64,000 nucleotides of DNA from Brucella thiophenivorans (GTDB lineage Bacteria > Pseudomonadota > Alphaproteobacteria > Rhizobiales > Rhizobiaceae): positions 1 through 64,000 of the forward strand of contig NZ_NNRJ01000061.1 in the NCBI RefSeq assembly GCF_002252445.1, written 5' to 3'. The notes beneath the pieces are model-generated. The model did not search any database. It saw only the letters and a program-made list of their open reading frames with translations, and had not been told where the DNA came from. The translations under genes were made by a program, and so were the position numbers. Below are positions 32,585 through 48,861 of the stretch, in pieces (positions within the stretch are counted from its first letter, which is position 1; each line of letters starts with the position of its first letter).

Positions 32585-33547
32585 ATGTTACAAAATGTAA
32601 TGACAGCTTTACGGCGCGCAATTCCCTCTATGAACGGCCTCTTCACTTTGGAGGCTGCGGCGCGGCATGGAAATTTTTCAAAGGCAGCGCAGGAACTCAA
32701 TGTAACACCGGCTGCGATCAGCCGTATGATTGGGCGATTGGAGGAGCACCTCGATGTGCAGCTTTTTATTCGCACGACCAGTGGTGTCAATCTGACCGAG
32801 TATGGCAGAATTCTGCATGACGCCATTGAGCGTGGTTTTGCGGGTATTGAGCAGGCTTTGCAGGAAATCAGCGACCGCAAGCAGGGGGTGCAGACGGTAA
32901 CGCTTTCTCTCTCAACGGGGTTTACCACCCATTGGGTTATGCCGCGCATGGCGGCTTTCAAGAAAACCTTTCCCGGCGTTGATCTGCGTTTTGAGCTGAT
33001 CATGGGGCCTTTGGCGGGCCCGGTAAACGATGTTGATCTCGGTATGCGTTTCGTCGAAGGCGCGGATGTCAATCATGAAGCAACTTTTGTTATGCCCGAA
33101 ATTCTTTTGCCGATTTGCAGTCCGACCTATCAGAGAGAACACGATGAAGGGGACGCAGTTCTCAATCAGCCTGTCACGACATTGATAAATTTAAGCGAAG
33201 CGCAACCCAACTGGCCGGATTTCTTTCTGCCCGCGCGCGGGCGGGGTACGCATGACGAAATGCTTTTCTCTGACTATGCGATTGTCGTTCAGGCGGCTTT
33301 GCTGGGGCAGGGCGTTGCAATTGGTTGGCTAAATGTTTGTGCGCATTGGTTGCGGACCAAAGCGTTGATACCGGCGCATAACCGTTTGCTTCCAACACAT
33401 CGCAAATGCCATCTTGTACGTTTGCGCGATAGGCCCGTTCGCCCCATAGTCACTCAAGTGCGTGACTGGATTATTGCAGAGCTGATGGATGACATTAATG
33501 CTATCAAAGCAATGTATCCGGCGCTGGGCCTTGATGACGCTATTTAG
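32585..33547 (+). CDS. LysR-family regulator (GcvA-like)
   Basis: Regulator of 320 residues. The helix-turn-helix region FTLEAAARHGNFSKAAQELN and VTPAAISRMIGRLEEHLDVQ is of the GcvA type. It is divergent from the PotA-like operon and its stop overlaps the end of the convergent GMC gene at 33544 by 4 bases. The likely target is the transporter/amine-oxidase operon. The start is not certain: 32600 and 32630 are alternatives in the same frame. Confidence 0.88.
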   Translation: MLQNVMTALRRAIPSMNGLFTLEAAARHGNFSKAAQELNVTPAAISRMIGRLEEHLDVQLFIRTTSGVNLTEYGRILHDAIERGFAGIEQALQEISDRKQGVQTVTLSLSTGFTTHWVMPRMAAFKKTFPGVDLRFELIMGPLAGPVNDVDLGMRFVEGADVNHEATFVMPEILLPICSPTYQREHDEGDAVLNQPVTTLINLSEAQPNWPDFFLPARGRGTHDEMLFSDYAIVVQAALLGQGVAIGWLNVCAHWLRTKALIPAHNRLLPTHRKCHLVRLRDRPVRPIVTQVRDWIIAELMDDINAIKAMYPALGLDDAI

Positions 33548-35070
33548 TTTTTAGGAAACCGAGCGGCAAAGCTTTCTGCAATCGCCAATATTGCTGCGTG
33601 AATTGGCCCCGCGGTCAGGCTCGGCATGACTGAACCGTCAACGACATAGAGATTATCCAGACCGCGTAAGCGCAAATTTGTATCAACGACCGATGTGTCG
33701 TCCTTTCCCATCCGGCAAGTCCCTGAGGGGTGATGATGGGTTATCGCTGCCTTCGCGATAAAAGCGTCGAGTTCACTTTCAGATTTGAGCGGACCCGGAA
33801 AAATCTCATGATCGCGCCACTCGTCGAGTTCTGCTCTGTGGCCAATTTCGCGCGCAGCATGTAGGGCGGTGCGGAAAAGTCGACGGTCATGTTCTGTTTG
33901 CAAGTAACAAGGATCTATATGCAAAGGATCCGTCGGTTGTGACCCGGTTATGCGAATTTTGCCCCGGCTTGTAGGATGCGTTACACCAAACAAAAAGGAA
34001 TAGGCGCTACCCAGCGCAGGTGCATCAAAACACTCTGAAACAATGGGTGCAACCCCACATCCAACGACGATTTCCGGTTGGCCATCGGCAGTAAAGTCAC
34101 CCGCGCGCATATAGGCCATGCTTTCGGAATGTTGCAAACGTGACGGTGCTACCTCTTTTCGCGCGGCATAAAGATTGCCTGCGCCGAGTAGGTGATCCAT
34201 CAGATTGCGCCCAAGTTCGGGTGATTTGATACGGCAATTTACGCCGGCCTCACGCAACACGTCTTCTCGTCCAATACCAGAGCGCATTAAAAGTGCAGGG
34301 CTTTCCAGCGATCCGGCAGAAAGGATGATTTCATCGGCTGCGATTTTGCACAAACCATCCGGCCCTGCGAGTTCCAGCGCGCTAACGCGCGTTTTGTCGA
34401 GCTTCAGATAACGTGTCAGCGTGCCGGTCATGATTGTCAGATTTGGACGCGTACGTACTTCAGGCGTAAGCCATGCCTCGGCAACGGTCACTCGGTGACC
34501 ATCTCGGATCATCAAGGAGTTGGGCGTGACACCGATCATTTGGCCGGTATTGTGGCCGCGGATGTGTGGCAGACCAAGTGCGGCACCAGCTTCGATAAAA
34601 GATCGTGCCAATGGACTGACATCCTTGTCCGGTATCCACACAGGCATTGGTCCGCCCGATCCATGTGTGCCATCGTCGCCCCATGAACGGTCTTCAATAG
34701 CTTTGAATGCTGGCAGCAATCCTTCCCAGTTCCAGCGATCGTCGCCGGTCGCCTCCGCCCAAGCAGCAAAATCAGCGGGATGGCCACGCATGTAACCCAT
34801 GGCGTGCAAAAGACTGGAGCCGCCAAGCGCCTTGCCTCGTGCCCATGCGTGAACACGTCCGGCGGTTCCCCGCTGAGGGATGGTTTTGTAGTCCCAATCA
34901 TAGTGGCGGTGCTGGATAGCAGGCCACATTCCAGGCTTTAAGATATCCGGGTCTGTTGGCTCGCCACCTGCCTCTATCAGCACGACTTTACTGGTGGGGT
35001 CTTCGCTCAAACGTGCGGCGAGAAGAGCGCCAGCAGAGCCAGCGCCAATGATTGCTACATCATAGTGTGC
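33544..35070 (-). CDS. GMC-family FAD oxidoreductase, candidate pyridine-alcohol oxidase
   Basis: Flavoprotein of 508 residues. FAD motif VAIIGAGSAGALLAARLSED, GMC signature KALGGSSLLHAMGYMRG and catalytic His in HHHPSGTCRMG; the second residue is in LTAGPIHAAILAIAE. I chose ATG 35070 because the motif begins six residues later and the gene then follows nicX by 7 bases. Pyridoxine 4-oxidase belongs to this family, and the neighbours (nicX, pyridoxamine-pyruvate aminotransferase homologue) make oxidation of a hydroxymethyl-pyridine an attractive guess. The sequence alone does not prove this substrate. Confidence 0.88.
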   Translation of the reverse strand, partial: AHYDVAIIGAGSAGALLAARLSEDPTSKVVLIEAGGEPTDPDILKPGMWPAIQHRHYDWDYKTIPQRGTAGRVHAWARGKALGGSSLLHAMGYMRGHPADFAAWAEATGDDRWNWEGLLPAFKAIEDRSWGDDGTHGSGGPMPVWIPDKDVSPLARSFIEAGAALGLPHIRGHNTGQMIGVTPNSLMIRDGHRVTVAEAWLTPEVRTRPNLTIMTGTLTRYLKLDKTRVSALELAGPDGLCKIAADEIILSAGSLESPALLMRSGIGREDVLREAGVNCRIKSPELGRNLMDHLLGAGNLYAARKEVAPSRLQHSESMAYMRAGDFTADGQPEIVVGCGVAPIVSECFDAPALGSAYSFLFGVTHPTSRGKIRITGSQPTDPLHIDPCYLQTEHDRRLFRTALHAAREIGHRAELDEWRDHEIFPGPLKSESELDAFIAKAAITHHHPSGTCRMGKDDTSVVDTNLRLRGLDNLYVVDGSVMPSLTAGPIHAAILAIAESFAARFPKN

Positions 35071-35077
35071 CATGGTC

Positions 35078-36121
35078 TTACTTCTGATCTTGCGGGATAA
35101 CCGCGCCTTCAAGTGTCATGACTTCGCCGTCGAGCGATACCGAACAATTGCGAAGCGGGATGTCGAGATGACATGGTGTATCGCGATCTCCGCCTGCCTC
35201 TGTGTTGGGACCAGACGACCAGAGGAAGTTGCCTGCAAAGGATCGCGCATCCATGCCAAGCTGTGCTTCGGGATTATAGAGGCCAAGAACGGTCCAGTTT
35301 GCACGGTTCTCAAGTCCCCAGCCGACATGTGCCATGGCGTAAGCACGCGGATCGTTGAAGCTTTCCATGAACTTGCGCATGAATTCAGCGTCGTAGCCGC
35401 CCTTGATGTCGACGATAAAGCCTTTTTCGATGGTCACGGTGATTGGTGCGCGTGCATATTTCTTGAAGGGCAGCAGAATGTCGCCTTCATCAATGACGAT
35501 TGTGCCTTCGGCACTGCCTTCATCGGGCCAGCGTGCCGAGAAACAGCTTGGCCAGTGATCCCAGCGCCCCGGTTCGTCTGCAAGGCCATATTGTGTGAGC
35601 ACCGGATATTGGCCGAGGCGACAACGAAAATTCGTGCCTGCCTTTGATGTCACATGCATTTCTTTGGCCGCGCCTATTTTCTTTGCTGCGGCAAGAACAC
35701 GCAACTTGTCTTCGGGACGCGGAATCTGGCGCATCATAATTGCAGGCGGTTCGACCGCGAGCAACATGCGTGTACCGGTTTTCAAAACCTGCTCCTGTTC
35801 TTTGGAAAACAGAAGCTGCAATGTATCAATGACAAGGTCGGATGCCTTGAGGCAGGCAAGAGCTGCCACATTGCCATCCAGAGGGGTCTTGCCGATATAG
35901 CCTGATTTGTCGGGTGAAATCGCTTTTTCGCTGTTCACTGGCGCGAGGTTTAATTCGGTGACAACTGCACCGAGATCAGAAGCCGCTAGCTTTGCAATAT
36001 ACGCGATCTGCTTATTGCTATCGTCGCTTGTGAGGATCGTTACCTGTTCGCCGGGTTTCAGGTTGCACATTTCAAGCACCTGTCTCCAGCCCTTCAAGAA
36101 CTGCGCGTCACTGATAGACAT
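35078..36121 (-). CDS. nicX: 2,5-dihydroxypyridine 5,6-dioxygenase (NicX-like)
   Basis: Non-haem iron ring-cleaving enzyme of 347 residues, a member of the M29-peptidase-like fold. With ATG 36121 as start, the iron ligands recalled for Pseudomonas putida NicX fall at identical numbers: His265 in AHVGWGL, His318 and Asp320 in TPCHLDIPLRNC. Long stretches such as KTGTRMLLAVEPP and YGLADEPGRWDHWPS also match. NicX opens 2,5-dihydroxypyridine to N-formylmaleamate in nicotinate breakdown. Here none of the other nic genes is recognised, and the neighbours are HpaB-type monooxygenase, flavin reductase and amidases, so the true substrate may be a substituted dihydroxypyridine. Confidence 0.88.
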   Translation of the reverse strand: MSISDAQFLKGWRQVLEMCNLKPGEQVTILTSDDSNKQIAYIAKLAASDLGAVVTELNLAPVNSEKAISPDKSGYIGKTPLDGNVAALACLKASDLVIDTLQLLFSKEQEQVLKTGTRMLLAVEPPAIMMRQIPRPEDKLRVLAAAKKIGAAKEMHVTSKAGTNFRCRLGQYPVLTQYGLADEPGRWDHWPSCFSARWPDEGSAEGTIVIDEGDILLPFKKYARAPITVTIEKGFIVDIKGGYDAEFMRKFMESFNDPRAYAMAHVGWGLENRANWTVLGLYNPEAQLGMDARSFAGNFLWSSGPNTEAGGDRDTPCHLDIPLRNCSVSLDGEVMTLEGAVIPQDQK

Positions 36122-36245
36122 ATTATTACCTCCGTGGGGCAATGCCCGCTTGTATGTGGCTGCGACCGGAAGAGCTTCGGTTCAATTCAACGTGCTCTTT
36201 CTATTTAATATGCGGCGCAGGCGTTTCCCTCTGATTTTGATGTTT

Positions 36246-36761
36246 CTATAGCGCGGTCTGATTGGCCAGCGTGAAGAAGTTCCGATTGTAATGCAGCAGT
36301 GGCGATGTTTCTGGACCAAAGCGGATGGCCATTACTTTGCCAATGAAAATCGAATGACTTTCCGTTTCTGAAACAGATGCAATTTCACAGTCGAGATTTG
36401 CCATTGCATGATCAAGAGCGGGGGCGCCGGTCGCGAGATTCGTCCAGCCATAGGGTGAAAACTTATCTTCACCCAGCTCCCCAATCTGGCCTGCAAAACG
36501 CAGCGCAATTTCGCGCTGGGCATCGGCGAGGATGTTGACGCAAAAGCTTCCGGCAGAGGTAATTGCTTTATGTGCTTCACCGAAACGATTGACGCATACA
36601 AGCATTGAAGGCGGCGTGATCGACATTGAACAGACGGCAGTCGCCGTTAGTCCGCGACGGTTGTTGCCTTCGCCTGCGGTGATGATATTGACCGTCGCAG
36701 CAAGTTGGCGCATCGCAGTACGAAAATCATCGGTGAGTTGATCCGTTGCGGGCTGGGTCAC
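36246..36761 (-). CDS. flavin reductase (HpaC-type)
   Basis: NAD(P)H:flavin reductase of 171 residues. It has the FMN-binding pattern AVCSMSITPPSMLVCVNRFG and FCVNILADAQREIALRF. It supplies reduced flavin to two-component monooxygenases; the HpaB-type enzyme encoded at 39943 is the obvious partner in the same operon. Overlaps the end of the first amidase gene by 4 bases. A gap of about 125 bases to nicX holds no gene. Confidence 0.9.
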   Translation of the reverse strand: MTQPATDQLTDDFRTAMRQLAATVNIITAGEGNNRRGLTATAVCSMSITPPSMLVCVNRFGEAHKAITSAGSFCVNILADAQREIALRFAGQIGELGEDKFSPYGWTNLATGAPALDHAMANLDCEIASVSETESHSIFIGKVMAIRFGPETSPLLHYNRNFFTLANQTAL

Positions 36762-38056
36762 AGGGTGCCTCCTTTTGCAGCGATCACGTTTTCGAGGAAG
36801 AGAGCAGCGTTACCAAGGCGCAGGTCTGCGCCACGCGCACCTACGAGCTGAACGCCGACCGGCAAGCCTTTTGCCCCCTTTGAAACAGGCAGGCAGATCA
36901 GCGGAACTTGCAATACGCTCCAGAGCCTGTTGAAGATCGGATCGCCTGTTGCCATGCCTTCAGGCGCTTCACCGGGAGCAGCCAATGTCAAAACAGCATC
37001 GAAGCGTGACAGGATCGAATCCATCAGATGGCGAATGCCGTGAATTTCGGTCATGGCTGCGCGATAGCGCGGTTCATCAATGCGGCCCTGGTCATCCAGC
37101 ATGGTGCGGGTGACAGGTGTCAGTTCATTCCAGTGATGGCTGATTTCTGATGCAAGTGACTGGGTGACTTCCCAGCCCATAACGGCTTCATGAAGCTCAA
37201 AAATGCCGTCATACCACGCTGGTGCTGGGATAATCGTGACCTCGGCACCAGCAGCCTCAGCAGCCAATGCCAGACGATTGACCGCTTCAATCGCATAGGC
37301 TTCGGCTTTTTCGAGGCGGGTTCCCAAAAGCACGCCAATGCGCGACCGCGTTGGTGGTGTCAACGCGGCAAGTTCGGATTGACCGCTGAGTGTGGCGACA
37401 CAATAGGCAGCATCGCCAATGTTGCGGGCAATCACACCAAGCGTATCAAGTCCATGGCACAGGACCTTGATGCCGACAGTGTTGATTGACCCAAAGGTTG
37501 GTTTGAAGGCGGTGACGCCGCAAAAACTGGCCGGGCGGATAACGGAACCAGATGTTTGTGTGCCTAATGCCAGCGGAACCATTCCGGCTGCAACTGCCGC
37601 ACACGAGCCTGACGACGAGCCGCCCGGTGTATGTGCAGGGTTGTGGGGGTTGCGGGTCTTGTTGGGGCTTGCCATCGCAAGTTCTGTGCTGACTGTCTTG
37701 CCTAAAATCAGAGCGCCCGAATTCTTTGCGATTTGTACCGCTGGCGCATCCCATGGCGGCTGAAACCCTTCATAGATCGGAGTTCCATAGCCAGTTGGCA
37801 TATCGCTCGTATCGATTACATCTTTGACACCGATGGGGATGCCTGCAAGCGCTCCCTTGGCACCGTTCTTATCCATAGCATCGGCATTCTTGCGTGCTTG
37901 CTCGATGTTGAGATATTGCCATGCCTTGATCGGCCCGTCAGTCTGCGCGATCCGTTCCAGATAGGCTTCTGTGACTGCGCGCACGCTCAATTGCTTAGTT
38001 TCGACGACGGAAGCGATTTCGCGAGTAGTCAGGGCAAGGATTTCCGTATTCTTCAT
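36758..38056 (-). CDS. amidase signature-family hydrolase 1
   Basis: Ser-cisSer-Lys amidase of 432 residues. The catalytic Lys is in IPIGVKDVIDTSD, the cis-Ser in PGGSSSGSCAAVAAG and the nucleophile Ser in GTQTSGSVIRPASFCG. The start at 38056 has AAGGAAAA upstream. In ring-degradation pathways amidases release ammonia or formate from the opened ring (for example from maleamate or N-formyl amides). It lies between flavin reductase and a second amidase, both coupled by overlap or short gaps. Confidence 0.9.
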   Translation of the reverse strand: MKNTEILALTTREIASVVETKQLSVRAVTEAYLERIAQTDGPIKAWQYLNIEQARKNADAMDKNGAKGALAGIPIGVKDVIDTSDMPTGYGTPIYEGFQPPWDAPAVQIAKNSGALILGKTVSTELAMASPNKTRNPHNPAHTPGGSSSGSCAAVAAGMVPLALGTQTSGSVIRPASFCGVTAFKPTFGSINTVGIKVLCHGLDTLGVIARNIGDAAYCVATLSGQSELAALTPPTRSRIGVLLGTRLEKAEAYAIEAVNRLALAAEAAGAEVTIIPAPAWYDGIFELHEAVMGWEVTQSLASEISHHWNELTPVTRTMLDDQGRIDEPRYRAAMTEIHGIRHLMDSILSRFDAVLTLAAPGEAPEGMATGDPIFNRLWSVLQVPLICLPVSKGAKGLPVGVQLVGARGADLRLGNAALFLENVIAAKGGTL

Positions 38057-38066
38057 AGAGTTTTCC

Positions 38067-39485
38067 TTAGCCAAAAACCGGTGGACGGCGGTTTATCCAT
38101 GGGACTGCACGTTCGAGTTCTGCGGCCAGCGCAAAAAGCAATGCATCGTTGCCAAAGCCAGCCCCCATGTGCGAGCCAATAGGCAGACCTGTCGGGCTCA
38201 TGCCGAGCGGAACCGACATTGCAGGACAGCCCGACGTGTTGAACACAGCCGTGAACGGCGAATGCGACCAGAACAGATCGTAAAATTCATCAAGCGATTT
38301 GTCTTTACCTGCTAGCTTGCCCAAAAGCGGCGCCGGTTCAGCGGCGGCAGGCGTGAGCATGATGTCATATTGGGTGAAGAATTTCCCCAATGCACGGGAT
38401 GAGGCATGAAGCTGATTGATCGCCCAAAGATAACGCGTGCCGGAAACTTCCAGCGCTTCGCGGACCCATTGCTGATTGACGGGTTCGAGCTTTGCGGTAT
38501 TGGCAGAAGCGGCATCGCCACCAGTCACCCCAAGCGCAACATTGACCCCAACAACGATACGCCACGCAGTTTTGATAGCTTCCGCATCATAGCCTGCATC
38601 TGCGACCTCTTCGACATAATGTCCCAGAGCTTCCAGTAGTTTCGCTGTTTCGCGAATGCTTGCGATCATTTCCGGCGCAATGGCACTGCCGTCTGGTGCG
38701 CCAAGGATCATAGCCACTTTGAGGGGGGGCGGGGTCTTTTCGAGTGCTGAAAGATAGCTGCCAAAAGTAGCAGGAGCAGCCCACGGATCGCCCAGATCGC
38801 TGCCGCGCGAAATATCGAGCATCGCTGCATTGTCGCGAACCGACCATGTCACAGCATGCGGCGTCGACATTCCGCCAATCGCTTCGGCAACGGTGGGGCC
38901 AACAGGATTAACCAGCCGCGATGGTTTGAAACCGAACAGTCCGCAATGGCTTGCGGGAAGTCTTGTAGAACCCGCTCCATCGGAACTGTTCGCAAGAGGA
39001 ACCATGCCGCTTGCCACTGCTGCGGTGGAGCCGCCGGACGATCCACCAGCCGAACGATTCAGGTCCCACGGATTGCGCGTTGGGCCGAAAGCCACGGATT
39101 CGGTTGTGAAACTCAGCGCAAATTCCGGCGTGTTGGATTTACCTACAATCACCATGCCTGCGGATTTATAGCGTGCGGTAATGGTGGAATCGCGTTTGCT
39201 GACTGCATTGCGTAAGAGTTCAGAGCCGCTCGATAGGATCATGCCTTCGGCTTCAAAGCCGGTGTTTTTAAGAAGCATAGGCACGCCGGAAAGTGGGCTT
39301 TTTGCCAATCCATTTTTGATTTGTTGTCGCGCGAGATCAAAATGCGCATGCACAACAGCATTCAGTTGAGGGTTCAGGCGTTCTATTCGTGTGATGCTCG
39401 TTTCAAGCACTTCGGTTACGCTGATTTCACCTTTTGAAATCAGTTCGCCGATTGCGATGCCATCTTTTTTTGCCAGATCGTCCAT
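38067..39485 (-). CDS. amidase signature-family hydrolase 2
   Basis: Second amidase of 472 residues. Catalytic Lys in GVPMLLKNTGFEAEG, cis-Ser in AGGSSGGSTAAVASG and nucleophile Ser in GAGSTRLPASHCGLFG. It shares little with amidase 1 outside these motifs, so the two probably act on different bonds or different intermediates. A run of seven G (38723-38729 region) does not disturb the frame. Followed by amidase 1 after 10 bases. Confidence 0.9.
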   Translation of the reverse strand: MDDLAKKDGIAIGELISKGEISVTEVLETSITRIERLNPQLNAVVHAHFDLARQQIKNGLAKSPLSGVPMLLKNTGFEAEGMILSSGSELLRNAVSKRDSTITARYKSAGMVIVGKSNTPEFALSFTTESVAFGPTRNPWDLNRSAGGSSGGSTAAVASGMVPLANSSDGAGSTRLPASHCGLFGFKPSRLVNPVGPTVAEAIGGMSTPHAVTWSVRDNAAMLDISRGSDLGDPWAAPATFGSYLSALEKTPPPLKVAMILGAPDGSAIAPEMIASIRETAKLLEALGHYVEEVADAGYDAEAIKTAWRIVVGVNVALGVTGGDAASANTAKLEPVNQQWVREALEVSGTRYLWAINQLHASSRALGKFFTQYDIMLTPAAAEPAPLLGKLAGKDKSLDEFYDLFWSHSPFTAVFNTSGCPAMSVPLGMSPTGLPIGSHMGAGFGNDALLFALAAELERAVPWINRRPPVFG

Positions 39486-39488
39486 CGC

Positions 39489-39878
39489 TTAGCTCATCTG
39501 CGCTTTGAAGAGATCAATATCCCACATATCTTTTGTGCCGGTCAGAAGACCATCCTTGATTTCAAAGATATGCAGGCCATCAAGCGCAATCTTGCGCGGC
39601 GTTGCATTTTCCTCGCGCGGCTTGCAGGTCGCGGTCATAAAATAAGGAATAGCAACCTGATTGGCCGCACGGATATAGCCACGACGTTCCCATGCAACAT
39701 CAGGCAGCATGCGCCAGAAACCGACAAGCCCTTCGGCGAGCGCTGCATGGCCTGCGCGACGCTTACCCATAGCGACTTCTTCATGCCAGCCATCGGTATG
39801 ATAAAGGGCAGCAGCAGCGTCCGCATTGCGTGATGCATAGGCTTTATAGAATTGGTCGATGAGCGTGGCGTAATCCAT
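39489..39878 (-). CDS. SnoaL/NTF2-like fold protein
   Basis: Small cytosolic protein of 129 residues with an NTF2-like pattern: LIDQFYKAYASRNADAAAAL at the start, WHEEVAMGKRRAGHAALAEG and a C-terminal HIFEIKDGLLTGTKDMWD. The family includes isomerases, hydrolases and ligand-binding proteins. ATG 39878 has TGGAG upstream and is preferred over 39959, which lies inside the monooxygenase gene. Its place directly between the monooxygenase and amidase genes suggests a step on a ring or opened-ring intermediate. Confidence 0.82.
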   Translation of the reverse strand: MDYATLIDQFYKAYASRNADAAAALYHTDGWHEEVAMGKRRAGHAALAEGLVGFWRMLPDVAWERRGYIRAANQVAIPYFMTATCKPREENATPRKIALDGLHIFEIKDGLLTGTKDMWDIDLFKAQMS

Positions 39879-39942
39879 CGCATTCTCCAGATCATCCCGA
39901 AAAGAACCCCGTCCGATTTTGGCCAGACGGGGCAGGCGGGGT

Positions 39943-41912: not shown

Positions 41913-41986
41913 GCATCTCTCCATTAAGGTAGGAAGTTCGGTAGCTTGGCCCCTCTGGCTTTGCTGTTCTGATTGTCTCAAGGTTA

Positions 41987-42039
41987 GACATGTCGGACTT
42001 GACCTGTCAATAGATTGTATGACAAGATTACGGTCATAC
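41987..42039. promoter_or_regulatory. divergent promoter with palindromes and a predicted GntR site
   Basis: Between the divergent genes are GACATGTC (41987-41994), TTGACCTGTCAA (41999-42010), TTGTATGACAA (42015-42025, fits the FadR/GntR pattern TnGTnnnACnA) and the 15-mer AGATTACGGTCATAC (42025-42039). GTATGAC and GTCATAC also form an inverted repeat with a 9-base spacer. The 15-mer resembles sites before the GntR gene and before the SDR gene at 48861. Confidence 0.6.
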
Positions 42040-42116
42040 TGAAAACTTCAGGCGAGATTGTTCTTTCAGCCAGGTCGGATTTGTTTCAGCAGACAAAGGT
42101 GCAAAGCAGGGGAATC

Positions 42117-42965
42117 ATGGCGGGTCCGGCATCAGACATCGATGAGAAAATAGCACCGTTTGAGCTTTATGCCCTGCGTTATGCTACCCATCAGGGACGG
42201 AAGGCGAAAGACAATTTTCTTTATGCCGATCCGCATGAACAGGGTGAAAATCTCGATTATTTCATTTGGCTAGCCCGTCGGGGTGACGAGGTTTTCGTTA
42301 TCGATACGGGTTTTGGTCAAGAAGCTGCCGATGCCCGTGGACGCACATTGTTACGCCGTCCTGTGGATGCACTCGCTTTGTTGGATGTCGATGCAAAGAA
42401 CGTGTGTCAGGTGATTCTGACCCATCTCCATTATGATCATGCAGGCACGCTCGGAGAGTTTCCGGCAGCGCATTTTCATCTTCAGGTCGATGAAGCAGGC
42501 CATGCGACCGGGCCTTGTATGTGCGATACAAAGGCGCGTGCGCCCTTCGATGTAGAAAACATCGTAGCTTATATCCGCAATCTTTATGCCGGTAGAATTG
42601 AGTTTTATCGCGGCGACAAAGAATTGGTACCCGGCTTATGGCTGCATTCCGTGCCGGGCCACAGCGCAGGCTTGCAGGTCGTTCGCGCTTATACTGCGCG
42701 TGGCTGGGTGGTTATCGCATCTGATGCCACGCATTTTTATGCCAATATGGAGCGGGAAAATCCATTTCCAGTGTTGTTTGATGAAGCTGCGCTGATCCGG
42801 GGCTATGCGCGATTGATTGAGCTTGCGCCAAGCCTTGATCATATCGTGCCGGGACATGATCCAGCAGTCATGCGAGCCTATCCTGCCTTGTCACCAGCAT
42901 TGGAAGGCATCGTGGCAAGGCTGGATGTTGCGCCGATGTTAAGCTGGCAGGAGCTTGCGCGATGA
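42117..42965 (+). CDS. metallo-beta-lactamase-fold hydrolase (lactonase-like)
   Basis: Zinc hydrolase of 282 residues with HLHYDH (His103, His105, Asp107, His108 from the chosen start), the third-ligand His in VPGHSAGL, the bridging Asp in ASDATHF and the last His in VPGHDP. This is the arrangement of N-acyl homoserine lactonases and 4-pyridoxolactonase. ATG 42117 has AGGGG five bases upstream; ATG 42015 would start inside the predicted operator. Heading the plus-strand half of the cluster, it probably opens a lactone or cyclic amide intermediate. Confidence 0.87.
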   Translation: MAGPASDIDEKIAPFELYALRYATHQGRKAKDNFLYADPHEQGENLDYFIWLARRGDEVFVIDTGFGQEAADARGRTLLRRPVDALALLDVDAKNVCQVILTHLHYDHAGTLGEFPAAHFHLQVDEAGHATGPCMCDTKARAPFDVENIVAYIRNLYAGRIEFYRGDKELVPGLWLHSVPGHSAGLQVVRAYTARGWVVIASDATHFYANMERENPFPVLFDEAALIRGYARLIELAPSLDHIVPGHDPAVMRAYPALSPALEGIVARLDVAPMLSWQELAR

Positions 42966-43744
42966 GCAATGGCGGGGGACGCGGCGTTCTAATCACAGGT
43001 TCAGCACTTGGATTGGGGTTGGAACTTGCGCGGGTCTTTGCAAAAGCTGGTGATCGGGTGTTTCTGAGCGATATTCGTTCTGATGTGCGCGATGCTGCAC
43101 TGGTTTTGGCTGAAGAAACAGGTCAGCCTGTCGGTTCGCTTGAAACTGATTTATCCAAAGAAGGCGCTTCTGATCGGCTTGTTGCTCATGCAAGAGAGCA
43201 TCTTGGTTCGGTCGATATTCTCATAAACAATGCTGTCATTCGCAAAATGTCCCCGGTGCAATCGCTTGCCGATTTGGATTGGGATCGCGCGATGGAGGTC
43301 AATCTGTCCGCGCCGTTCCGGCTGATCCGTGCATGTCTGCCGCAAATGCAGGCGCGGGGCTGGGGGCGGATCATCAATATGGCTTCTGTCTATAGTTTGA
43401 TCGCGCTTGCGGGACGGGTGGATTACGTTACCACCAAACATGCGATGATCGGGCTGACACGCACGGTGGCGCTGGAGCTTGCTGCCACATCGATTACCTG
43501 TAATGCGATTTGTCCGGGACTGATGGCGACAGATTCAGCGCTTGGCCGCATTGAAACGCTGGCCACTGAAAACGGCTTAAGCTTTGATGAGGCAACGCAG
43601 CTTTTCCTTTCCTCCCGTCAGCCGGGTGGCAAATTTATTCCAGTGGAGACGGTGACGGCGCTCGCGCTGTTCCTTTGCGGCGCTGCCAGCGAAGGCATCA
43701 ATGGTGCGGCTATCCCGGTAGATAATGGCTGGTCCTTCGCTTGA
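42962..43744 (+). CDS. short-chain dehydrogenase/reductase
   Basis: NAD(P)-dependent oxidoreductase of 260 residues with TGSALGLGLELARVF, NNAV, the catalytic Ser in NMASVYS and Tyr-Lys in YVTTK. It looks like 3-hydroxybutyrate dehydrogenase-type SDRs; pyridoxal 4-dehydrogenase of the vitamin B6 pathway is also an SDR. Its start overlaps the MBL gene by 4 bases (ATGA), so the two are translationally coupled and may act in sequence on an alcohol or aldehyde and its lactone. Confidence 0.9.
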   Translation: MSNGGGRGVLITGSALGLGLELARVFAKAGDRVFLSDIRSDVRDAALVLAEETGQPVGSLETDLSKEGASDRLVAHAREHLGSVDILINNAVIRKMSPVQSLADLDWDRAMEVNLSAPFRLIRACLPQMQARGWGRIINMASVYSLIALAGRVDYVTTKHAMIGLTRTVALELAATSITCNAICPGLMATDSALGRIETLATENGLSFDEATQLFLSSRQPGGKFIPVETVTALALFLCGAASEGINGAAIPVDNGWSFA

Positions 43745-43773: not shown

Positions 43774-44670
43774 ATGAGCGAAGTCGGTTTTGTGGGCCTT
43801 GGCAATATGGGGCGTCCGATGGCGGAACGCATGATCGGCGCGGGCTATAAGCTTGTCGTTAATGATCGGGCCCAAGCAGCGGTTGCGGCGCTGACCTCAG
43901 CGGGTGCTGAGGAAGCCTCTAGCCTTGATGAACTGGCAACCCGGGTTGAAACCATTTTCCTTTCATTGCCAACGCCTGATGTGGTGCTGGCTGTCGGGCG
44001 AAGTATTGCTGCAAATCCCGGTGTTGTGAAACGCGTTGTCGATCTGTCGACGACCGGACCAAAAGCTGAGATGGATCTGGCGGAGATATTGTCTGCTGCC
44101 AGCGTTTCCTTGATCGATAGTCCCGTATCGGGCGGTGTTGCAGGTGCTAAAAAGGGGACACTGGCTTTGATGGCCGCTGGTCCATCTGTGGATTTTGCCA
44201 TTGTCGAGCCGATGCTTCTGACGCTTGGAAAAGTGATCCGCGTTGCGGAAGAGCCGGGCAAGGCACAGGTGATGAAGCTAATCAATAATATCTGCTCGGC
44301 GGCAGCCCTCGCAATCACATCGGAAGCAATGGTCATGGGTGCCAAAGCAGGCCTTGATGCAGATGTGATGATTGAAGTGCTCAATGCCGGATCAGGTCGC
44401 ACATCGGCCAGTTTCGACAAGATTCCGCGTTTTGTCTTGCCGCGTGGCTTTGATTTTGGTTTTGCGATTTCGTTGTCACTCAAGGATATTCGGCTTTGCC
44501 TTGAGGAGGCCGAGCGTCTTGGCGTTCCGATGATGGTCGGTAACGCCGTTCGCATGCTCTTTTCGATTACCAAGGCCGAACTTGGACCGGATGCGGATAT
44601 GACCGCAATTATCCGGCCTCTGGAACAATGGGCGGAGACGGAAGTGCGTGGCAAAGCTGCTGGCGTCTGA
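43774..44670 (+). CDS. 3-hydroxyisobutyrate dehydrogenase-family oxidoreductase
   Basis: Beta-hydroxyacid dehydrogenase of 298 residues. Cofactor motif GFVGLGNMGRPMAERMI, substrate motif DSPVSGGVAGAKKGTL and catalytic Lys in KLINNICSAA. The family oxidises 3-hydroxy acids or reduces semialdehydes (tartronate, succinate). In this cluster it likely handles an aliphatic product after ring opening. Follows the SDR by 29 bases with AGGAG upstream. Confidence 0.9.
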   Translation: MSEVGFVGLGNMGRPMAERMIGAGYKLVVNDRAQAAVAALTSAGAEEASSLDELATRVETIFLSLPTPDVVLAVGRSIAANPGVVKRVVDLSTTGPKAEMDLAEILSAASVSLIDSPVSGGVAGAKKGTLALMAAGPSVDFAIVEPMLLTLGKVIRVAEEPGKAQVMKLINNICSAAALAITSEAMVMGAKAGLDADVMIEVLNAGSGRTSASFDKIPRFVLPRGFDFGFAISLSLKDIRLCLEEAERLGVPMMVGNAVRMLFSITKAELGPDADMTAIIRPLEQWAETEVRGKAAGV

Positions 44671-44671
44671 C

Positions 44672-46030
44672 ATGGCGGGTTTGAGCACATTCATTGCTGA
44701 ATTTGTGCATGCGTCGCCGCAACTGCCCGAAGCGGTGCGTGCCGCCGGGCGTCGCTCCTTGCTCAATATGGTCGGCACGGCGATAGGCGGCTCGAATGAG
44801 GCTACAATTGAAAAACTGGTGGCAATGTTGCCAGCTTTTTCCGGTCCTGCAACTACGACGATCATTGGCCGTTCTGAACGTGCCGACATGCTCTGGGCTG
44901 CTTATATCAATGCGGCGTCGGCCAATATCTTTGATTATGATGACACGCATGTACCGACAGTTATTCATCCTTCGGCCCCTGTCGCACCGGCTGTTCTGGC
45001 GCTGGCTGAGACAATGGTTCTGGAAGGCCGCCCCGTGTCGGGGCAGGCGCTGATCGAAGCTTTTGTTCTGGGTGCAGAAATCACTTGCCGACTGGGTAAC
45101 GCTCTGCATCCGGTGCATTATGCGCGTGGCTGGCATATTACTTCGACCTGCGGAACATTTGGAGCAGCGCTCGCAGCAGGCAGACTTTTGAAGCTTACGC
45201 CTTCGCAGCTTGTGGACGCGCTGGGACACGCGCTGGCGCAAGCCTCCGGCTCCGTTGAAACATTGGGTACAATGTCGAAAAGCCTATCCGTGGGGCAGGC
45301 TGCACGCGCCGGATTGATGTCTGCGCTGCTTGCAGCCAATGGCTATACCGGACCGCAAGCGCCGATTGAGGGTTCGCGTGGTTTCCTTGCGCTTCACGCC
45401 GAGGCCCCCGACGTTTCGGCACTGACTGAAGGGTTGGGTGAGCGTTGGGAGATACTGAAAAATACGTTCAAGCCTTACCCATGCGGCGTGGTGCTGAACC
45501 CGGTCATTGAAGCCTGCCTTGCACTTCAGGCTGAAGCGAGTTTCGTTGCGGACGATATTGCATCCATAACTCTCACTGGACATCCGCTTTTACGCCAACG
45601 TACGGATCGGCCTGATGTTGCCACTGGCAGATTATCGCAAGTCAGTGCGCAGCACGCCGTGGCGGTCAGTCTGCTATGGGGCAGGGCAGATAGGGAAGCT
45701 TTCTCCGATCAGGCTGTTATTGATCCGCATATCAGGGCACTGGGTAGCAAGCTGTCATTTTTAGATGATCATTCCTTTACATTCGAAGCTGCTGAAGTTT
45801 GTCTGACCCTTCAGGATGGGCGCAGGCTGTTGCGAAGGGTAGATGCTGCCAAAGGCGGATTGATTTATCCGATGACCGATGCCGATCTGGCGACGAAGTT
45901 TCGCGCGCAGGTTAGATGGCGCAGTATTGAACTCAAAAGTGATGCGCTGATCGCTTCGCTTGAGACGATTGAAGATGCGGTGGATGGAACTGCTTTTCTC
46001 GCTATGACGCGAGATAATAGGAATAGCTAA
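44672..46030 (+). CDS. MmgE/PrpD-family protein
   Basis: Protein of 452 residues in the 2-methylcitrate dehydratase-like family. Typical stretches are FDYDDTHVPTVIHPSAPVAP, RGWHITSTCGTFGAALAAGR and KPYPCGVVLNPVIEA. Members dehydrate or isomerise branched di- and tricarboxylic acids. ATG 44672 lies one base after the previous stop; GTG 44648 is an alternative with a ribosome-site-like GGAG and would overlap that gene. Expected to act on a dicarboxylate derived from the opened ring. Confidence 0.88.
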   Translation: MAGLSTFIAEFVHASPQLPEAVRAAGRRSLLNMVGTAIGGSNEATIEKLVAMLPAFSGPATTTIIGRSERADMLWAAYINAASANIFDYDDTHVPTVIHPSAPVAPAVLALAETMVLEGRPVSGQALIEAFVLGAEITCRLGNALHPVHYARGWHITSTCGTFGAALAAGRLLKLTPSQLVDALGHALAQASGSVETLGTMSKSLSVGQAARAGLMSALLAANGYTGPQAPIEGSRGFLALHAEAPDVSALTEGLGERWEILKNTFKPYPCGVVLNPVIEACLALQAEASFVADDIASITLTGHPLLRQRTDRPDVATGRLSQVSAQHAVAVSLLWGRADREAFSDQAVIDPHIRALGSKLSFLDDHSFTFEAAEVCLTLQDGRRLLRRVDAAKGGLIYPMTDADLATKFRAQVRWRSIELKSDALIASLETIEDAVDGTAFLAMTRDNRNS

Positions 46031-46041: not shown

Positions 46042-47220
46042 ATGAGCCACGGGAAAATTGCCGATCCAATATTCACTTTGACCACAGGACCGGTCGATGC
46101 TTATCCGTCCGTGCTGCGCGCGCTGTCGCGACCTGTGCTTTATGATTATGATCCGGCATTTCTTGCGTTTTATGAATCGGTCAATGCCAAGGTGCAGCAC
46201 GTGTTTCACACCTCTACACCGCCTGTCATTCTTCAGGGCGAACCTGTTTTAGGATTAGAAGCTGCCGCAGCCTCGCTGATTACCAAAAATGATGTCGTCC
46301 TTAATCTGGTATCTGGCGTCTACGGCAAAGGCTTTGGTTCTTGGGCTGCACGCTATGCAAAGGACGTTGTTGAACTTGCAGTGCCTTATAATGAAGTGCT
46401 CACGGCTCAAGCGGTTGCTGACTTTCTAAAAAAGCGTCCTGACATTGCAGTTGTCTCGATCTGCCATCACGATACGCCGTCCGGTACGGTTAATCCGGTG
46501 GCTGAAATTGGTGCCGTCGTGAGGGACGCGGGAAAGCTGTTCATTGTGGATTCTGTTTCGGCTTTCGGCGGAATGGATGTGTTGCCCGAAACTTCTTGTG
46601 CCGATATTTTTGTGACCGGCCCGAATAAATGTCTGGGTTGCCCGCCCGGATTGACGCTTTTGCATGTGAGCGAAGCCGCGTGGGAAAAAATGACAGCAAA
46701 TCCGGACGCGCCAAAGGCTTCCATCCTCTCGATTGTTGACTGGAAAGAGGCGCATAGGGCTGATCGGCCGTTTCCTTTCACGCCATCGGTTTCCGAAATC
46801 AATGCGCTGGATGCAGCGCTTGATATTTATCTCGAAGAAGGTGAGCAGGCTGTTTGGGCACGTCATGCGCTGACGGCAAAAGCCTGTCGCGCAGGTGTGC
46901 AGGCCGCAGGTCTAAAACTCTGGGCGGCACGCGAAGAAATTGCATCTGCGACCTGTACCGCCGTAGCTATTCCCGATGGAATAGATGAAGCAAAATTGCG
47001 TGCGTCCATTCGCGAGCGTTACGGCGTAGTCTTTTCGTCAGGTCGCGGCGTGACGCTGGGTAAGCTCACGCGGATCGGGCATATGGGACCAACAGCACGC
47101 CCGACTTATTCGCTTATATCCGTTGCAGCGATTGCTGGTGGATTGCAGGCTGCGGGTATCAAGGGGATCGATATTGGTGCAGGCGTTGCCGCCACGATGT
47201 CGATTATAGATGCGGCATAA
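46042..47220 (+). CDS. pyridoxamine-pyruvate aminotransferase homologue
   Basis: PLP-fold aminotransferase of 392 residues. It matches, over nearly its whole length, the pyridoxamine-pyruvate aminotransferase of Mesorhizobium loti as I remember it: LYDYDPAFLAFYE, NLVSGVYGKGFGSWAARY, VSICHHDTPSGT, TGPNKCLGCPPGLTLL with the conserved Lys, and GVVFSSGRGVTLGKLTRIGH. That enzyme converts pyridoxamine plus pyruvate to pyridoxal plus alanine without bound PLP. It is the strongest hint that the cluster degrades a B6-like aminomethyl-pyridine. Alternative: an alanine-glyoxylate type transaminase of another specificity. Confidence 0.85.
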   Translation: MSHGKIADPIFTLTTGPVDAYPSVLRALSRPVLYDYDPAFLAFYESVNAKVQHVFHTSTPPVILQGEPVLGLEAAAASLITKNDVVLNLVSGVYGKGFGSWAARYAKDVVELAVPYNEVLTAQAVADFLKKRPDIAVVSICHHDTPSGTVNPVAEIGAVVRDAGKLFIVDSVSAFGGMDVLPETSCADIFVTGPNKCLGCPPGLTLLHVSEAAWEKMTANPDAPKASILSIVDWKEAHRADRPFPFTPSVSEINALDAALDIYLEEGEQAVWARHALTAKACRAGVQAAGLKLWAAREEIASATCTAVAIPDGIDEAKLRASIRERYGVVFSSGRGVTLGKLTRIGHMGPTARPTYSLISVAAIAGGLQAAGIKGIDIGAGVAATMSIIDAA

Positions 47221-47290: not shown

Positions 47291-47305
47291 GTAATACGGT
47301 AATAC
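47291..47305 (+). promoter_or_regulatory. predicted GntR operator before its own gene
   Basis: GTAATACGGTAATAC, two copies of the palindromic heptamer GTAATAC separated by one G, 31 bases before the start of the GntR gene. Similar 15-mers occur at 42025 and 48970. Confidence 0.6.
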
Positions 47306-47336: not shown

Positions 47337-48053
47337 ATGGCTGTATCTATGAACGGACGAACTCCGCCGATTGATTTTAAAGTGGTAAAAGCTGCCGCTC
47401 CCGTGCGTCATAGCGTGACGGAGAGTATCCGTAATTCGATTGCGGTTGGGTATTTTACCGCGGGACAGCGTATCACGGAACGTGACTTGTGCGAGATGAC
47501 CGGTGTCAGCCGTACGGCTGTGCGCGAGGCACTTCGGCAGCTTGAAAGTGAAGGTCTGGTTGAGGTTGTGCCGCATCGTGGACCGATTGTGGCACGTCTG
47601 AAGCCGGAGCAGGCGGAAGGCATCTATCAGGTCCGTATTGAGCTTGAAGGGCTGGCATGCGAATTGTTTGCCCGCAATGCAACTGACGAAGATATTGACG
47701 CGCTTAAAGCCGCTTTTGAAGTGCTAAAGCAAGGCGACAAAGTCACCGATCCGCTCGAGCGCCTGCAAGCCAAGAATGCGTTTTATGATTGCCTGATTTT
47801 TGGTGCACATAACGAAGCGCTTGGCCATACGCTTTCTTCGCTGAATGCGCGCGTCATGGTCTTGCGTGCGACGTCGTTGGGCGCGCCGGGGCGTACGCGT
47901 GAAAGCCTTGCTGAACTTGAAGAAGTTGTCGGACACCTAGCCGCCAGACGTGGCAAGGAAGCGCGCAAGGCAGCCGCCCATCACGTCATGAATGCAGGCA
48001 AGGTCGCCATCGCCATCCTGCGCGAGCGGTTGGCCGAAGAAGCGGACGCTTAA
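47337..48053 (+). CDS. GntR-family regulator with FCD domain
   Basis: Transcription factor of 238 residues of the FadR subgroup. The winged helix is RITERDLCEMTGVSRTAVRE followed by ALRQLESEGLVEVVPHRG. The FCD ligand domain spans about residues 90-225, with the metal/ligand His and Asp in YDCLIFGAHNEAL and EEVVGHLAARRGKEARKAAAHH. It stands at the end of the plus-strand half of the pyridine-type cluster and most likely controls it, sensing a carboxylate intermediate. ATG 47349 is an alternative start. Confidence 0.9.
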   Translation: MAVSMNGRTPPIDFKVVKAAAPVRHSVTESIRNSIAVGYFTAGQRITERDLCEMTGVSRTAVREALRQLESEGLVEVVPHRGPIVARLKPEQAEGIYQVRIELEGLACELFARNATDEDIDALKAAFEVLKQGDKVTDPLERLQAKNAFYDCLIFGAHNEALGHTLSSLNARVMVLRATSLGAPGRTRESLAELEEVVGHLAARRGKEARKAAAHHVMNAGKVAIAILRERLAEEADA

Positions 48054-48060: not shown

Positions 48061-48080
48061 GCCGGGGATTTGTCCCCGGC
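48061..48080. terminator. bidirectional terminator between GntR and SDR genes
   Basis: A perfect 8-bp stem GCCGGGGA / TCCCCGGC with loop TTTG, between the convergent genes ending at 48053 (+) and 48094 (-). Flanks are T-rich on the plus side and AT-rich on the other. Confidence 0.8.
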
Positions 48081-48093
48081 GTTTATGTTTGAA

Positions 48094-48861
48094 TTATATT
48101 CCCGGCGTTGCGCCACCATCGACATTGATGACCGTACCATGCACGTAAGCTGCGGCAGGACTGCATAAAAAGCGGACAACGTCGGCCACTTCTTCAGCCT
48201 CACCATAGCGTTGTATGCCCTGTGCTTCACGGATTTCCTCACGCGCCGCTTCAATGGAAATATTACGCTCTTTCGCAAGCACTTCGATGCGACGGTTCAA
48301 GCGGTCGGTTAGGATATGGCCGGGGCAGAGCGTGTTGATCCGCATGCCTGTGCCTTGAGCGCGTTTGGAAATAGCCTTTGTAAAATTGATGAGCGCGGAA
48401 TTGACCGAGCCGCCAATTGTAAAATCTGGTTCAGGTGTATGCGCGCCGACACCCGATATATTGACGATTACGCCTTTGCTGTCCGTCAAAGACTGCCAGG
48501 CTGCTCTGCAGAAGCGCACTGTTGCATGGAATTTGAGCGCAAAACCCTCCTGAAAGTCCTCGTCTGTCAGTGATAAAAAATCACCGCGTTTGGTTGCGCC
48601 AGCATTATTGATGAGCGCATCAATCTGTCCGGTCGCGGCAAGCGTCTCGGAGATGACTTTTTCGGCTGCGCCAACTTGCGACAAATCGGCTGCAATGATG
48701 ATAACTTGTGGTGAGCCTGCTGCGCGAGCAAGCTCGGCAGTCTCTTTGAGTGCGTCTGCATCGCGGGCACAAAGGCTTAGCGCGAATCCGTCTTTTGCCA
48801 GTGCGAGGGCGAAGGCTCTACCCAATCCACGACTGGCTCCAGTGACAATTGCTGTGCGCAT
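48094..48861 (-). CDS. SDR-fold protein lacking the YxxxK catalytic motif
   Basis: Protein of 255 residues with the SDR cofactor motif TGASRGLGRAFALALA, NNAG and the catalytic-position Ser in VNISGVG. At the place of Tyr-x-x-x-Lys the sequence reads FTIGGSVNSALINFT, so both Tyr and Lys appear to be missing while the following helix is normal. It may use another mechanism, or act as a binding protein. A predicted GntR site lies about 110 bases upstream of its start, linking it to the cluster on the other side of the terminator. Confidence 0.85.
   Translation of the reverse strand: MRTAIVTGASRGLGRAFALALAKDGFALSLCARDADALKETAELARAAGSPQVIIIAADLSQVGAAEKVISETLAATGQIDALINNAGATKRGDFLSLTDEDFQEGFALKFHATVRFCRAAWQSLTDSKGVIVNISGVGAHTPEPDFTIGGSVNSALINFTKAISKRAQGTGMRINTLCPGHILTDRLNRRIEVLAKERNISIEAAREEIREAQGIQRYGEAEEVADVVRFLCSPAAAYVHGTVINVDGGATPGI

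Follow-up and report, generated by a model that had tools for sequence, protein, structure and literature searches.

Genes of the locus

This study concerns a two-sided gene cluster of Brucella thiophenivorans that lies in a stretch of 64,000 nucleotides (assembly GCF_002252445.1, contig NZ_NNRJ01000061.1, positions 1-64,000), which was analysed as a whole and is called the window below. The sequence indicates that the cluster probably serves the uptake and breakdown of vitamin B6, sharing its entry steps with the known B6 degradation pathway I and opening the ring in a different way. A preliminary description of the cluster had named its genes, and for every one of them we found an intact open reading frame at about the expected place; the family assignments were upheld by sequence matches in Pfam, NCBIfam and PDB. 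It had left unmentioned the genes for a SnoaL/NTF2-like protein and a carboxymuconolactone-decarboxylase-like protein.

The left half of the cluster is encoded on the minus strand. It comprises genes for a pyridoxine 4-oxidase of the GMC family, which converts pyridoxine to pyridoxal (33544-35112); a NicX-type Fe(II) ring-cleaving dioxygenase (35078-36142, with a likely start at an ATG near 36121); an HpaC/RutF-like flavin reductase, the partner of HpaB (36246-36761; PF01613, below the NCBIfam cut-offs for RutF and HpaC); two enzymes of the amidase-signature family (PF01425), the malonamidase-like amidase A (36758-38074) and amidase B (38067-39485); the SnoaL/NTF2-like protein (39489-39959; PF12680); an HpaB-type FADH2-dependent monooxygenase, the proposed ring hydroxylase (39943-41430); and the carboxymuconolactone-decarboxylase-like protein (41502-41981; PF02627), which scored 148.2 with the PcaC model against a cut-off of 155.7.

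The right half is encoded on the plus strand and starts with a metallo-beta-lactamase-fold (MBL) hydrolase, a proposed lactonase with the HxHxDH motif (42015-42965; PF00753, start probably near 42117). It is followed by SDR1, a short-chain dehydrogenase with a YxxxK motif (42962-43744; PF00106); a beta-hydroxyacid dehydrogenase of the hydroxyisobutyrate type (43774-44670), below the NCBIfam cut-offs for 2-hydroxy-3-oxopropionate reductase and HIBADH; an MmgE/PrpD-family protein, possibly a decarboxylase or isomerase (44648-46030), whose nearest solved relatives in PDB are IDS-epimerase (162 bits) and cis-aconitate decarboxylase and IRG1 (109-136 bits); pyridoxamine-pyruvate aminotransferase (PPAT), which converts pyridoxamine to pyridoxal (46042-47220); and a GntR-family regulator recognised by the models of that family (47337-48053). 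Beyond it, on the minus strand, stands the gene of SDR2, a dehydrogenase-fold protein that matches SDR models without the YxxxK motif (48094-48861).

Many of these genes are tightly packed. Overlaps of 4 bases were found between flavin reductase and amidase A and between MBL and SDR1, of 8 bases between the two amidases, and of 23 bases between the dehydrogenase and PrpD, and only 11 bases separate PrpD from PPAT; such junctions are as in operons. The preliminary description had ended the cluster at 48861, which is too early, as it missed a complete B6-type ATP-binding cassette (ABC) transporter at 49626-54519.

Entry enzymes and transporter

The GMC protein matched PDB 3t37 and 4ha6 with 775 bits (the 4ha6 record bears the name pyridoxine 4-oxidase), and the next enzyme, choline dehydrogenase, with 276 bits; judged by these scores, it is a pyridoxine 4-oxidase orthologue. 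The aminotransferase scored above the NCBIfam equivalog cut-off for PPAT (NF046070: 647.6 against 600). It matched PDB 2z9u with 554 bits and the next chain with 141 bits; the 2z9u record is titled aspartate aminotransferase, and we take it to be the structure of Mesorhizobium loti PPAT. Proteins above the PPAT cut-off are rare: in a sample of the class to which this organism belongs, 8 of 385 genomes have one (a ninth match was below the cut-off), and in a sample of its order 24 of 347.

All four transporter genes, encoded on the plus strand, pass the NCBIfam cut-offs for a B6 ABC transporter, a family that NCBIfam itself terms putative: the substrate-binding protein (49626-50660; NF047927, 478 against 400), the ATPase (50812-52488; NF047930, 732.7 against 670), permease 2 (52485-53576; NF047929, 520 against 400) and permease 1 (53587-54519; NF047928, 477.6 against 465). 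By these models the locus holds a complete putative B6 ABC transporter, and a homologous transporter (49-70% identity) adjoins PPAT in canonical B6 clusters. It is thus highly likely from sequence that both pyridoxine and pyridoxamine are converted to pyridoxal, through pyridoxine 4-oxidase and PPAT, behind a B6-type transporter. Since these two enzymes both yield pyridoxal, the predicted substrate is almost certainly vitamin B6. The preliminary description had left the substrate open among pyridine compounds, and the oxidase, PPAT and the transporter narrow it down to this vitamin.

Conservation of the cluster

The HpaB protein, used as a single query, identified 47 loci in species-representative genomes, a search that reaches close relatives only. 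The locus counts rest on the 43 loci of at least 17 kb (4 were short), with identity thresholds that we set for each gene. PPAT was present in 41 of these 43 long loci, and all 41 carry pyridoxine oxidase and NicX as well. Over the 41 PPAT-linked loci, the B6 binding protein was found in 40 (it was absent within the L004 locus), amidase A, amidase B and SnoaL in 39 each (SnoaL was absent in L029 and L031), and the flavin reductase in 37.

Seventeen loci have the same two-sided order as the window, and all 15 genes from pyridoxine oxidase to SDR2 occur in 17 of 17. These window-type loci come from Brucella/Ochrobactrum, Rhizobium, Ciceribacter, Paracoccus, Pseudogemmobacter, Metarhizobium, a Mesorhizobium metagenome-assembled genome (MAG) and others. 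A second group of 24 loci shares the core in other gene arrangements, and its carriers are Neorhizobium, Rhizobium, Ancylobacter, Labrenzia, Roseibium, Celeribacter, Sinirhodobacter, Actibacterium, Siculibacillus, Chthonobacter and two MAGs. With 17 loci repeating the order and a further 24 sharing the core, the arrangement is not a chance one. The joint conservation of the two halves, on which the preliminary description had staked its proposal, is seen in the window-type group, with the reservation that this group is defined partly by the presence of MBL and SDR2 and by definition keeps both halves. The whole transporter is present in 24 of 24 second-group loci. For the window-type loci the fetched stretch mostly ends inside the transporter, and the ATPase was seen in 11 of 17 and the permeases in none; an annotated Rhizobium daejeonense plasmid holds a window-type cluster with a complete transporter. 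The nearest relatives of the cluster are those of Brucella rhizosphaerae (PPAT 92% identical) and Ochrobactrum, and they point to an Ochrobactrum-type member of the Brucellaceae as the probable carrier of the window. The HpaB of Ciceribacter naphthalenivorans (L011) is 96-97% identical.

MBL, SDR1 and MmgE/PrpD were found in none of the 24 second-group loci, and carboxymuconolactone-decarboxylase-, GntR- and hydroxyacid-dehydrogenase-like genes in 8 of them. That the former are missing and the others partly replaced argues for a downstream role of these proteins and for a core that runs from the transporter to the amidases. Hence MBL, SDR1, MmgE/PrpD and the hydroxyisobutyrate-type dehydrogenase, which the preliminary description had counted among the parts of the cluster, are present here but do not belong to its conserved core.

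In the unbiased sample of 347 order genomes, 8 carry the HpaB clade (E at most 1e-80), each being of a different genus and all belonging to the 24 PPAT genomes. The same 8 are the only ones with a NicX protein of at least 62% identity, and 54 of the 347 have some NicX-family protein at 1e-40.

From the loci we selected 49 PPAT proteins (that of L096 was dropped as too short) and built a tree by a quick method. The window-type proteins formed one branch (support 93), those of the second group fell in several branches, and those of canonical clusters were interleaved with them. This suggests that one entry module has repeatedly been joined to differing ring-opening modules.

Enzymes of pathway I

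To search for MHPCO, the ring oxygenase of pathway I, we used as query the protein encoded at L096:4683-5819, which matches PDB 3alj with 838 bits and comes from a full-looking pathway I cluster of a relative; this cluster also holds genes that we take to be candidates for the later pathway I enzymes 4-pyridoxate dehydrogenase, decarboxylase and AAMS hydrolase. No match to MHPCO at 1e-10 was found in the genome of the window (assembly 98.5% complete, 77 contigs). The MBL protein is far under the curated cut-off for 4-pyridoxolactonase (NF047925: 38.8 against 325), and the genome gave no match to this model at 1e-15. SDR1 is likewise under the cut-off for the SDR-type pyridoxal 4-dehydrogenase (NF047923: 130.7 against 325), and the best protein of the genome reached 212 bits, the search covering this type of pyridoxal dehydrogenase. 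With scores so far below the cut-offs, MBL and SDR1 were rejected as members of the two curated families.

Across the 24 PPAT genomes of the order, the canonical lactonase and pyridoxal dehydrogenase pass their cut-offs in the same 10 genomes, none of which is among the 8 HpaB genomes. An MHPCO orthologue (86-100% identity, 100% being the source of the query) was found in 5 of the 24 (G628, G689, G645, G427 and G666) and the HpaB clade (74-100%) in 8 (G000, G468, G466, G721, G440, G646, G535 and G394); no genome has both. We also inspected 25 PPAT places, with about 10 kb on each side where the contig allows: the canonical pair was found at 10, the HpaB clade at 8, neither at 7 and both at none (Fisher p = 0.008). 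The canonical dehydrogenase or lactonase was detected in none of the 41 PPAT-linked long HpaB loci, and the genomes of the 47 HpaB loci gave no MHPCO orthologue at E 1e-40, with relatives of 36-40% identity in 6. Next to a PPAT gene in another genome (G516:C1:3238821-3239308) the 4-pyridoxolactonase gene is in two pieces with an internal stop, that is, decayed.

HpaB, NicX and the amidases

The monooxygenase has the HpaB_N (PF11794) and HpaB (PF03241) domains, and its flavin reductase partner is encoded on the same strand in the same gene run. It does not reach the cut-offs for 4-hydroxyphenylacetate 3-monooxygenase proper (TIGR02309, 221.8 against 480.2; TIGR02310, 123.6 against 885.2). Its six best solved matches lie between 201 and 215 bits and are 7dbw, a 4-hydroxyphenylacetate 3-hydroxylase; 9j9j, a 4-nitrophenol 4-monooxygenase; and the chlorophenol monooxygenases 3hwc, 4g5e, 7e8q and 6jhm. 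The entries 7dbw and 9j9j align to HpaB letter for letter alike. Weaker matches were other 4-hydroxyphenylacetate hydroxylases (172, 171, 156 and at most 125 bits) and a further chlorophenol enzyme (145 bits). We take 6jhm and 7e8q to be HadA. HadA has been described to hydroxylate the para position of phenols that have no para substituent, giving hydroquinones (PMC6180312).

Window NicX matches that of Pseudomonas putida KT2440 (PDB 7cn3) with 398 bits over nearly the whole length, at 52% identity. The P. putida enzyme is described to cleave 2,5-dihydroxypyridine between C5 and C6; its iron ligands are His265, Ser302, His318 and Asp320, contacts to N1 and O1 of the substrate come from Glu177 and His189, and Leu104 and His105 help to steer it (PMC7910607). 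Among its reported mutants, H105F is active, and H105A and the double mutant E177A/H189A are inactive (PMC7910607). The window protein keeps the equivalents of H265, S302, H318 and D320, as well as His189 and Leu104, and has Gln for Glu177, Phe for His105 and Ile for Cys76. All 45 loci examined that belong to either cluster type have Gln177 and Phe105 (PPAT lies within the stretch in 43, and 2 are cut short), and the iron ligands are kept in all aligned rows. For a comparison within the order, 30 loci were fetched for 58 NicX matches, of which 8, the window's own included, are HpaB-linked; the 22 other relatives have Glu (9), Val (12) or Gln (1, L152) at position 177. It appears from these alignments that the iron site is intact and the substrate-reading part is altered wherever NicX pairs with HpaB, with one exception seen, and the altered pocket would fit a substituted 2,5-dihydroxypyridine.

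Neither substitution was retained as a mark of the B6 type. Phe105 was rejected on the ground that it is present in all 9 of the Glu177-bearing relatives from the order, and Gln177 on the ground that it occurs in the unlinked L152 and in HpaB-linked NicX proteins without PPAT, which are considered below.

The nearest solved relative of amidase A is malonamidase E2 (282 bits), whose substrate is a dicarboxylic acid amide. That of amidase B, 6-aminohexanoate cyclic-dimer hydrolase (273 bits), hydrolyses a cyclic amide.

Proposed route and alternative explanations

Counted from the 3-hydroxyl of pyridoxal or of 4-pyridoxic acid, the para position is C6, and this carbon bears hydrogen. Hydroxylation at C6 would give exactly the 2,5-dihydroxypyridine pattern that NicX needs, and this fit is the core of the proposed mechanism. 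By analogy with the para-hydroxylating relatives, it is fairly likely that HpaB and the flavin reductase hydroxylate C6 of the B6 ring to yield a substituted 2,5-dihydroxypyridine. NicX would then cleave between C2 and C3, the equivalent of the C5-C6 bond of the NicX substrate, and because C2 bears a methyl group the product would be the N-acetyl, rather than the N-formyl, analogue of N-formylmaleamate. The two amidases, whose number matches the two C-N bonds of the imide, would release acetate and ammonia, perhaps one product each; we consider the chances of this cleavage and deacylation to be somewhat better than even. The residual acid would have six carbons, with a hydroxymethyl plus a carboxyl or formyl group, and in window-type clusters the decarboxylase-like protein, the lactonase-like MBL, the hydroxyacid dehydrogenase and MmgE/PrpD would process it. 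Whether HpaB acts on pyridoxal itself seems evenly balanced, and 4-pyridoxic acid, made first by SDR1 and MBL, is a possible but rather doubtful substrate. Taken together, we propose, with about equal chances for and against it, a third B6 pathway widespread in Alphaproteobacteria, in which pyridoxal would be hydroxylated at C6 by HpaB, a re-tuned NicX would open the ring between C2 and C3 and the amidases would follow, 4-pyridoxic acid being bypassed and the ring-opening module being exchanged behind the same entry genes.

Several observations weigh against this proposal. HpaB is distant from characterised enzymes (at most 215 bits) and its top PDB match is named 4-hydroxyphenylacetate 3-hydroxylase; with relatives so distant, the site of hydroxylation is therefore assigned by analogy. 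The two Neorhizobium loci L018 and L019 have neither of the amidases, nor the flavin reductase, within 10 kb, and the flavin reductase was undetected in 4 of 41 loci altogether (L018, L019, L024 and L029). HpaB relatives of 49-65% identity occur with NicX and without detected PPAT in the long loci L044 and L045, in the short locus L048 and in the plasmid loci L068-L070 (5 of the 16 plasmid records with an HpaB relative were examined). The pair is therefore not exclusive to B6, and the B6 link holds for the close HpaB clade only. Gln177 is present in 5 of 6 HpaB-linked NicX proteins of this kind and so is no B6 mark, but accompanies the coupling to HpaB. The mutual exclusion of MHPCO and HpaB within the 24 genomes does not by itself reach significance (Fisher p = 0.13). 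Moreover, 6 of the 10 lactonase-bearing genomes (G589, G500, G511, G399, G561 and G606) are also without an MHPCO orthologue, and the absence of MHPCO alone therefore does not imply the HpaB route. The canonical place of L104, in a genome that has a canonical cluster of PPAT, lactonase and dehydrogenase and no MHPCO orthologue, has beside this cluster, at 2773-7323, a distant HpaB relative (26% identity, not counted as HpaB clade), a flavin reductase, an amidase, a cupin and MarR, without NicX; this may be a 4-hydroxyphenylacetate-type set or another B6 variant. Finally, the chance of the HpaB/PPAT overlap in the order, 1.5e-10 (2.2e-9 without the window's own genome), holds if the genomes are independent, and shared ancestry makes the true figure larger.

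Among the plasmid loci, L070, from a Peribacillus plasmid, has two HpaB genes, a NicX with Glu177, Asp/Glu racemases, isochorismatases, an alpha/beta hydrolase and an FAD synthetase, and is possibly a different hydroxypyridine pathway that uses HpaB. L068, from a Thioclava plasmid, has a B6-like transporter (50-56% identity), an HpaB relative, NicX, two amidases and an isochorismatase; PPAT and pyridoxine oxidase were undetected within the stretch.

The alternative closest to the proposed route keeps 4-pyridoxic acid as an intermediate: SDR1 would make 4-pyridoxolactone, MBL would open it, and HpaB and NicX would follow, only the ring opening being new. The genes of SDR1 and MBL share 4 bases and lie ahead of PPAT in a closely spaced run of genes on one strand, both are present in 17 of 17 window-type loci (MBL being part of the definition of that group), and the proteins have the YxxxK and HxHxDH motifs, respectively. 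Yet both are far below the curated cut-offs and are found in 0 of 24 second-group loci, and the canonical enzymes occur in 0 of 8 HpaB genomes; the nearest PDB match of MBL is a glyoxylase-like protein (64 bits), with AiiA lactonases at about 40 bits. We regard this route as unlikely, though to be kept in mind. The preliminary description had ordered the steps with lactone opening before hydroxylation, which is possible but not required, because MBL, SDR1 and PrpD are absent from the second-group loci and the lactonase-like genes thus lie outside the core. Pathway II seems very improbable. It proceeds by oxidation at the 5-side, via 5-pyridoxolactone and 5-pyridoxic acid. Its end product is given as 2-(hydroxymethyl)-4-oxobutanoate (PMC3538738). 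Lactonase-like and SDR proteins are indeed present and that end product would also be plausible here, but pyridoxine 4-oxidase and PPAT act on the 4-side, and a single-component FAD ring oxygenase was not seen in the cluster, the genome not having been searched for the 5-pyridoxate oxygenase.

That the ring-opening set can serve other substrates, as the loci with HpaB relatives and NicX but without detected PPAT indicate, leaves some room for a B6-like pyridine, such as a B6 antivitamin or a 3-hydroxypyridine of plants or microbes, whose side chain would be handled by pyridoxine oxidase and PPAT. This is improbable, as PPAT passes an equivalog cut-off, pyridoxine 4-oxidase is by far the best match of the GMC protein, and the homologous transporter sits in clusters with canonical B6 enzymes. 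NicX owes its name to nicotinate breakdown, in which its substrate is unsubstituted 2,5-dihydroxypyridine, and one could thus imagine a B6 set and a nicotinate-type set that are neighbours by chance. However, 41 of 43 long loci keep these neighbours, in many genera and in differing gene orders, PPAT is present in 8 of 8 HpaB genomes and residue 177 of NicX is unlike that of the nicotinate enzyme; we hold this explanation to be extremely improbable and rejected it on the conservation of the loci and the co-occurrence in the order sample. Simple catabolism of nicotinate or nicotine was rejected too, since the cluster has conserved partners in pyridoxine oxidase, PPAT and the B6 transporter, and Glu177 of NicX is replaced.

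Candidate operator sites

The 15-base palindrome GTATTAC-N-GTAATAC, allowing up to 3 mismatches, occurs at 3 sites in the window against 0.95 expected from 20 first-order Markov sequences, a count that is circular because the consensus was drawn by eye from these very sites. One operator-like site lies between the divergent operons (42025-42039, 3 mismatches); 9 of 13 window-type loci have it in the equivalent position, 16-97 bases away from the start of MBL. Another precedes the GntR gene (47291-47305, 1 mismatch; 7 of 13 loci, 32-36 bases before gntR), and the third precedes SDR2 (48970-48984, 3 mismatches; 10 of 13 loci, 123-141 bases before the gene). Evidence independent of that count is that every hit in the 13 loci, of which L041 and L066 are from the same species, falls at one of these three places. 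No such array was seen in 8 other loci scanned (7 second-group and 1 canonical), where L020 and L021 gave one stray hit each. The pattern suggests that the sites form one GntR regulon. For the third site we claim no control of the transporter, as it precedes SDR2 by about 110 bases, whereas its distance to the transporter gene is some 640.

Neighbouring genes and other features

SDR2 has the signature of a dehydrogenase fold and yet lacks the catalytic YxxxK, though every one of the 17 window-type loci has its gene; the protein is perhaps non-catalytic, or an unusual representative of the SDR family. Between SDR2 and the transporter there is a small open frame on the minus strand that may encode a signal sequence (49134-49538), and a hypothetical protein is annotated at the equivalent place in the R. 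daejeonense cluster. In second-group loci an open reading frame of about 186 amino acids between the transporter and HpaB is conserved; it has no Pfam match and may be spurious.

A gene for an FAD-synthetase-domain protein (54535-55326, plus strand; PF06574) follows the transporter after a gap of 15 bases, and perhaps supplies FAD to the monooxygenase. Its membership of the cluster is uncertain, and in R. daejeonense the corresponding gene does not adjoin the transporter. Such genes recur beside HpaB and NicX in unrelated organisms (L045, L068, L069 and L070).

Further downstream (56522-63147) lies an ordinary sugar locus with a D-allose-type ABC transporter, a LacI-family regulator, a GFO/IDH/MocA oxidoreductase and a xylose-isomerase-like protein. 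The left flank (29188-32365) encodes a DAO-family oxidase, a type II haloacid-dehalogenase-like protein and a polyamine-type ABC ATPase; apart from scattered matches to the ATPase, these genes were not found beside the cluster in related loci.

Relation to known systems and significance

The locus resembles pathway I of M. loti and Pseudomonas sp. MA-1 in its orthologues of pyridoxine 4-oxidase and PPAT and in the homologous transporter beside PPAT. In contrast to pathway I, the genome has no match to MHPCO and no lactonase or pyridoxal dehydrogenase over the cut-offs, and HpaB, the flavin reductase, NicX and two amidases are found here instead; because three defining enzymes were searched for and not found, the locus is not a member of pathway I. 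With the nicotinate pathway of P. putida KT2440 it shares a full-length NicX homologue that keeps the iron ligands, His189 and Leu104, but this homologue has Gln177, Phe105 and Ile76, and both deacylations would fall to amidase-signature enzymes. Among the closest solved relatives of HpaB are two-component para-hydroxylating phenol monooxygenases, presumably HadA, TcpA and TftD, and a GR-x-PD stretch is present in window HpaB; it is only 201-215 bits from these enzymes, however, and its clade is tied to PPAT and NicX. The proposed route could end, as does pathway II of Pseudomonas sp. IA and Arthrobacter Cr-7, in a related hydroxymethyl four-carbon acid, but pathway II is entered from the 5-side and the corresponding ring oxygenase was not seen in the window cluster.

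The preliminary description had taken the cluster for one of pyridine-ring catabolism that matches no known pathway, and this is supported: we found no pathway that it fits, and a B6 front end is joined to a ring-opening set of HpaB, NicX and amidases. The breakdown of B6 has been described as the best understood case of cofactor catabolism, with two routes known (PMC3538738). Among the open-licence PubMed Central matches listed, no title or opening of an abstract links B6 degradation to HpaB or NicX, subscription papers being outside this search. As far as sequence comparison goes, the cluster very probably serves a B6 degradation with the entry of pathway I and a ring opening unlike that of either known route.

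If the proposal is true, it would assign a role to the conserved set of HpaB and NicX, the members of which are now annotated as 4-hydroxyphenylacetate 3-hydroxylase and 2,5-dihydroxypyridine 5,6-dioxygenase, for example in R. daejeonense. It would also add a third B6 route with different oxygen chemistry and a clear case of a ring-opening module swapped behind a shared entry module, and would bear on the use of vitamins as food by soil, plant-associated and marine bacteria.

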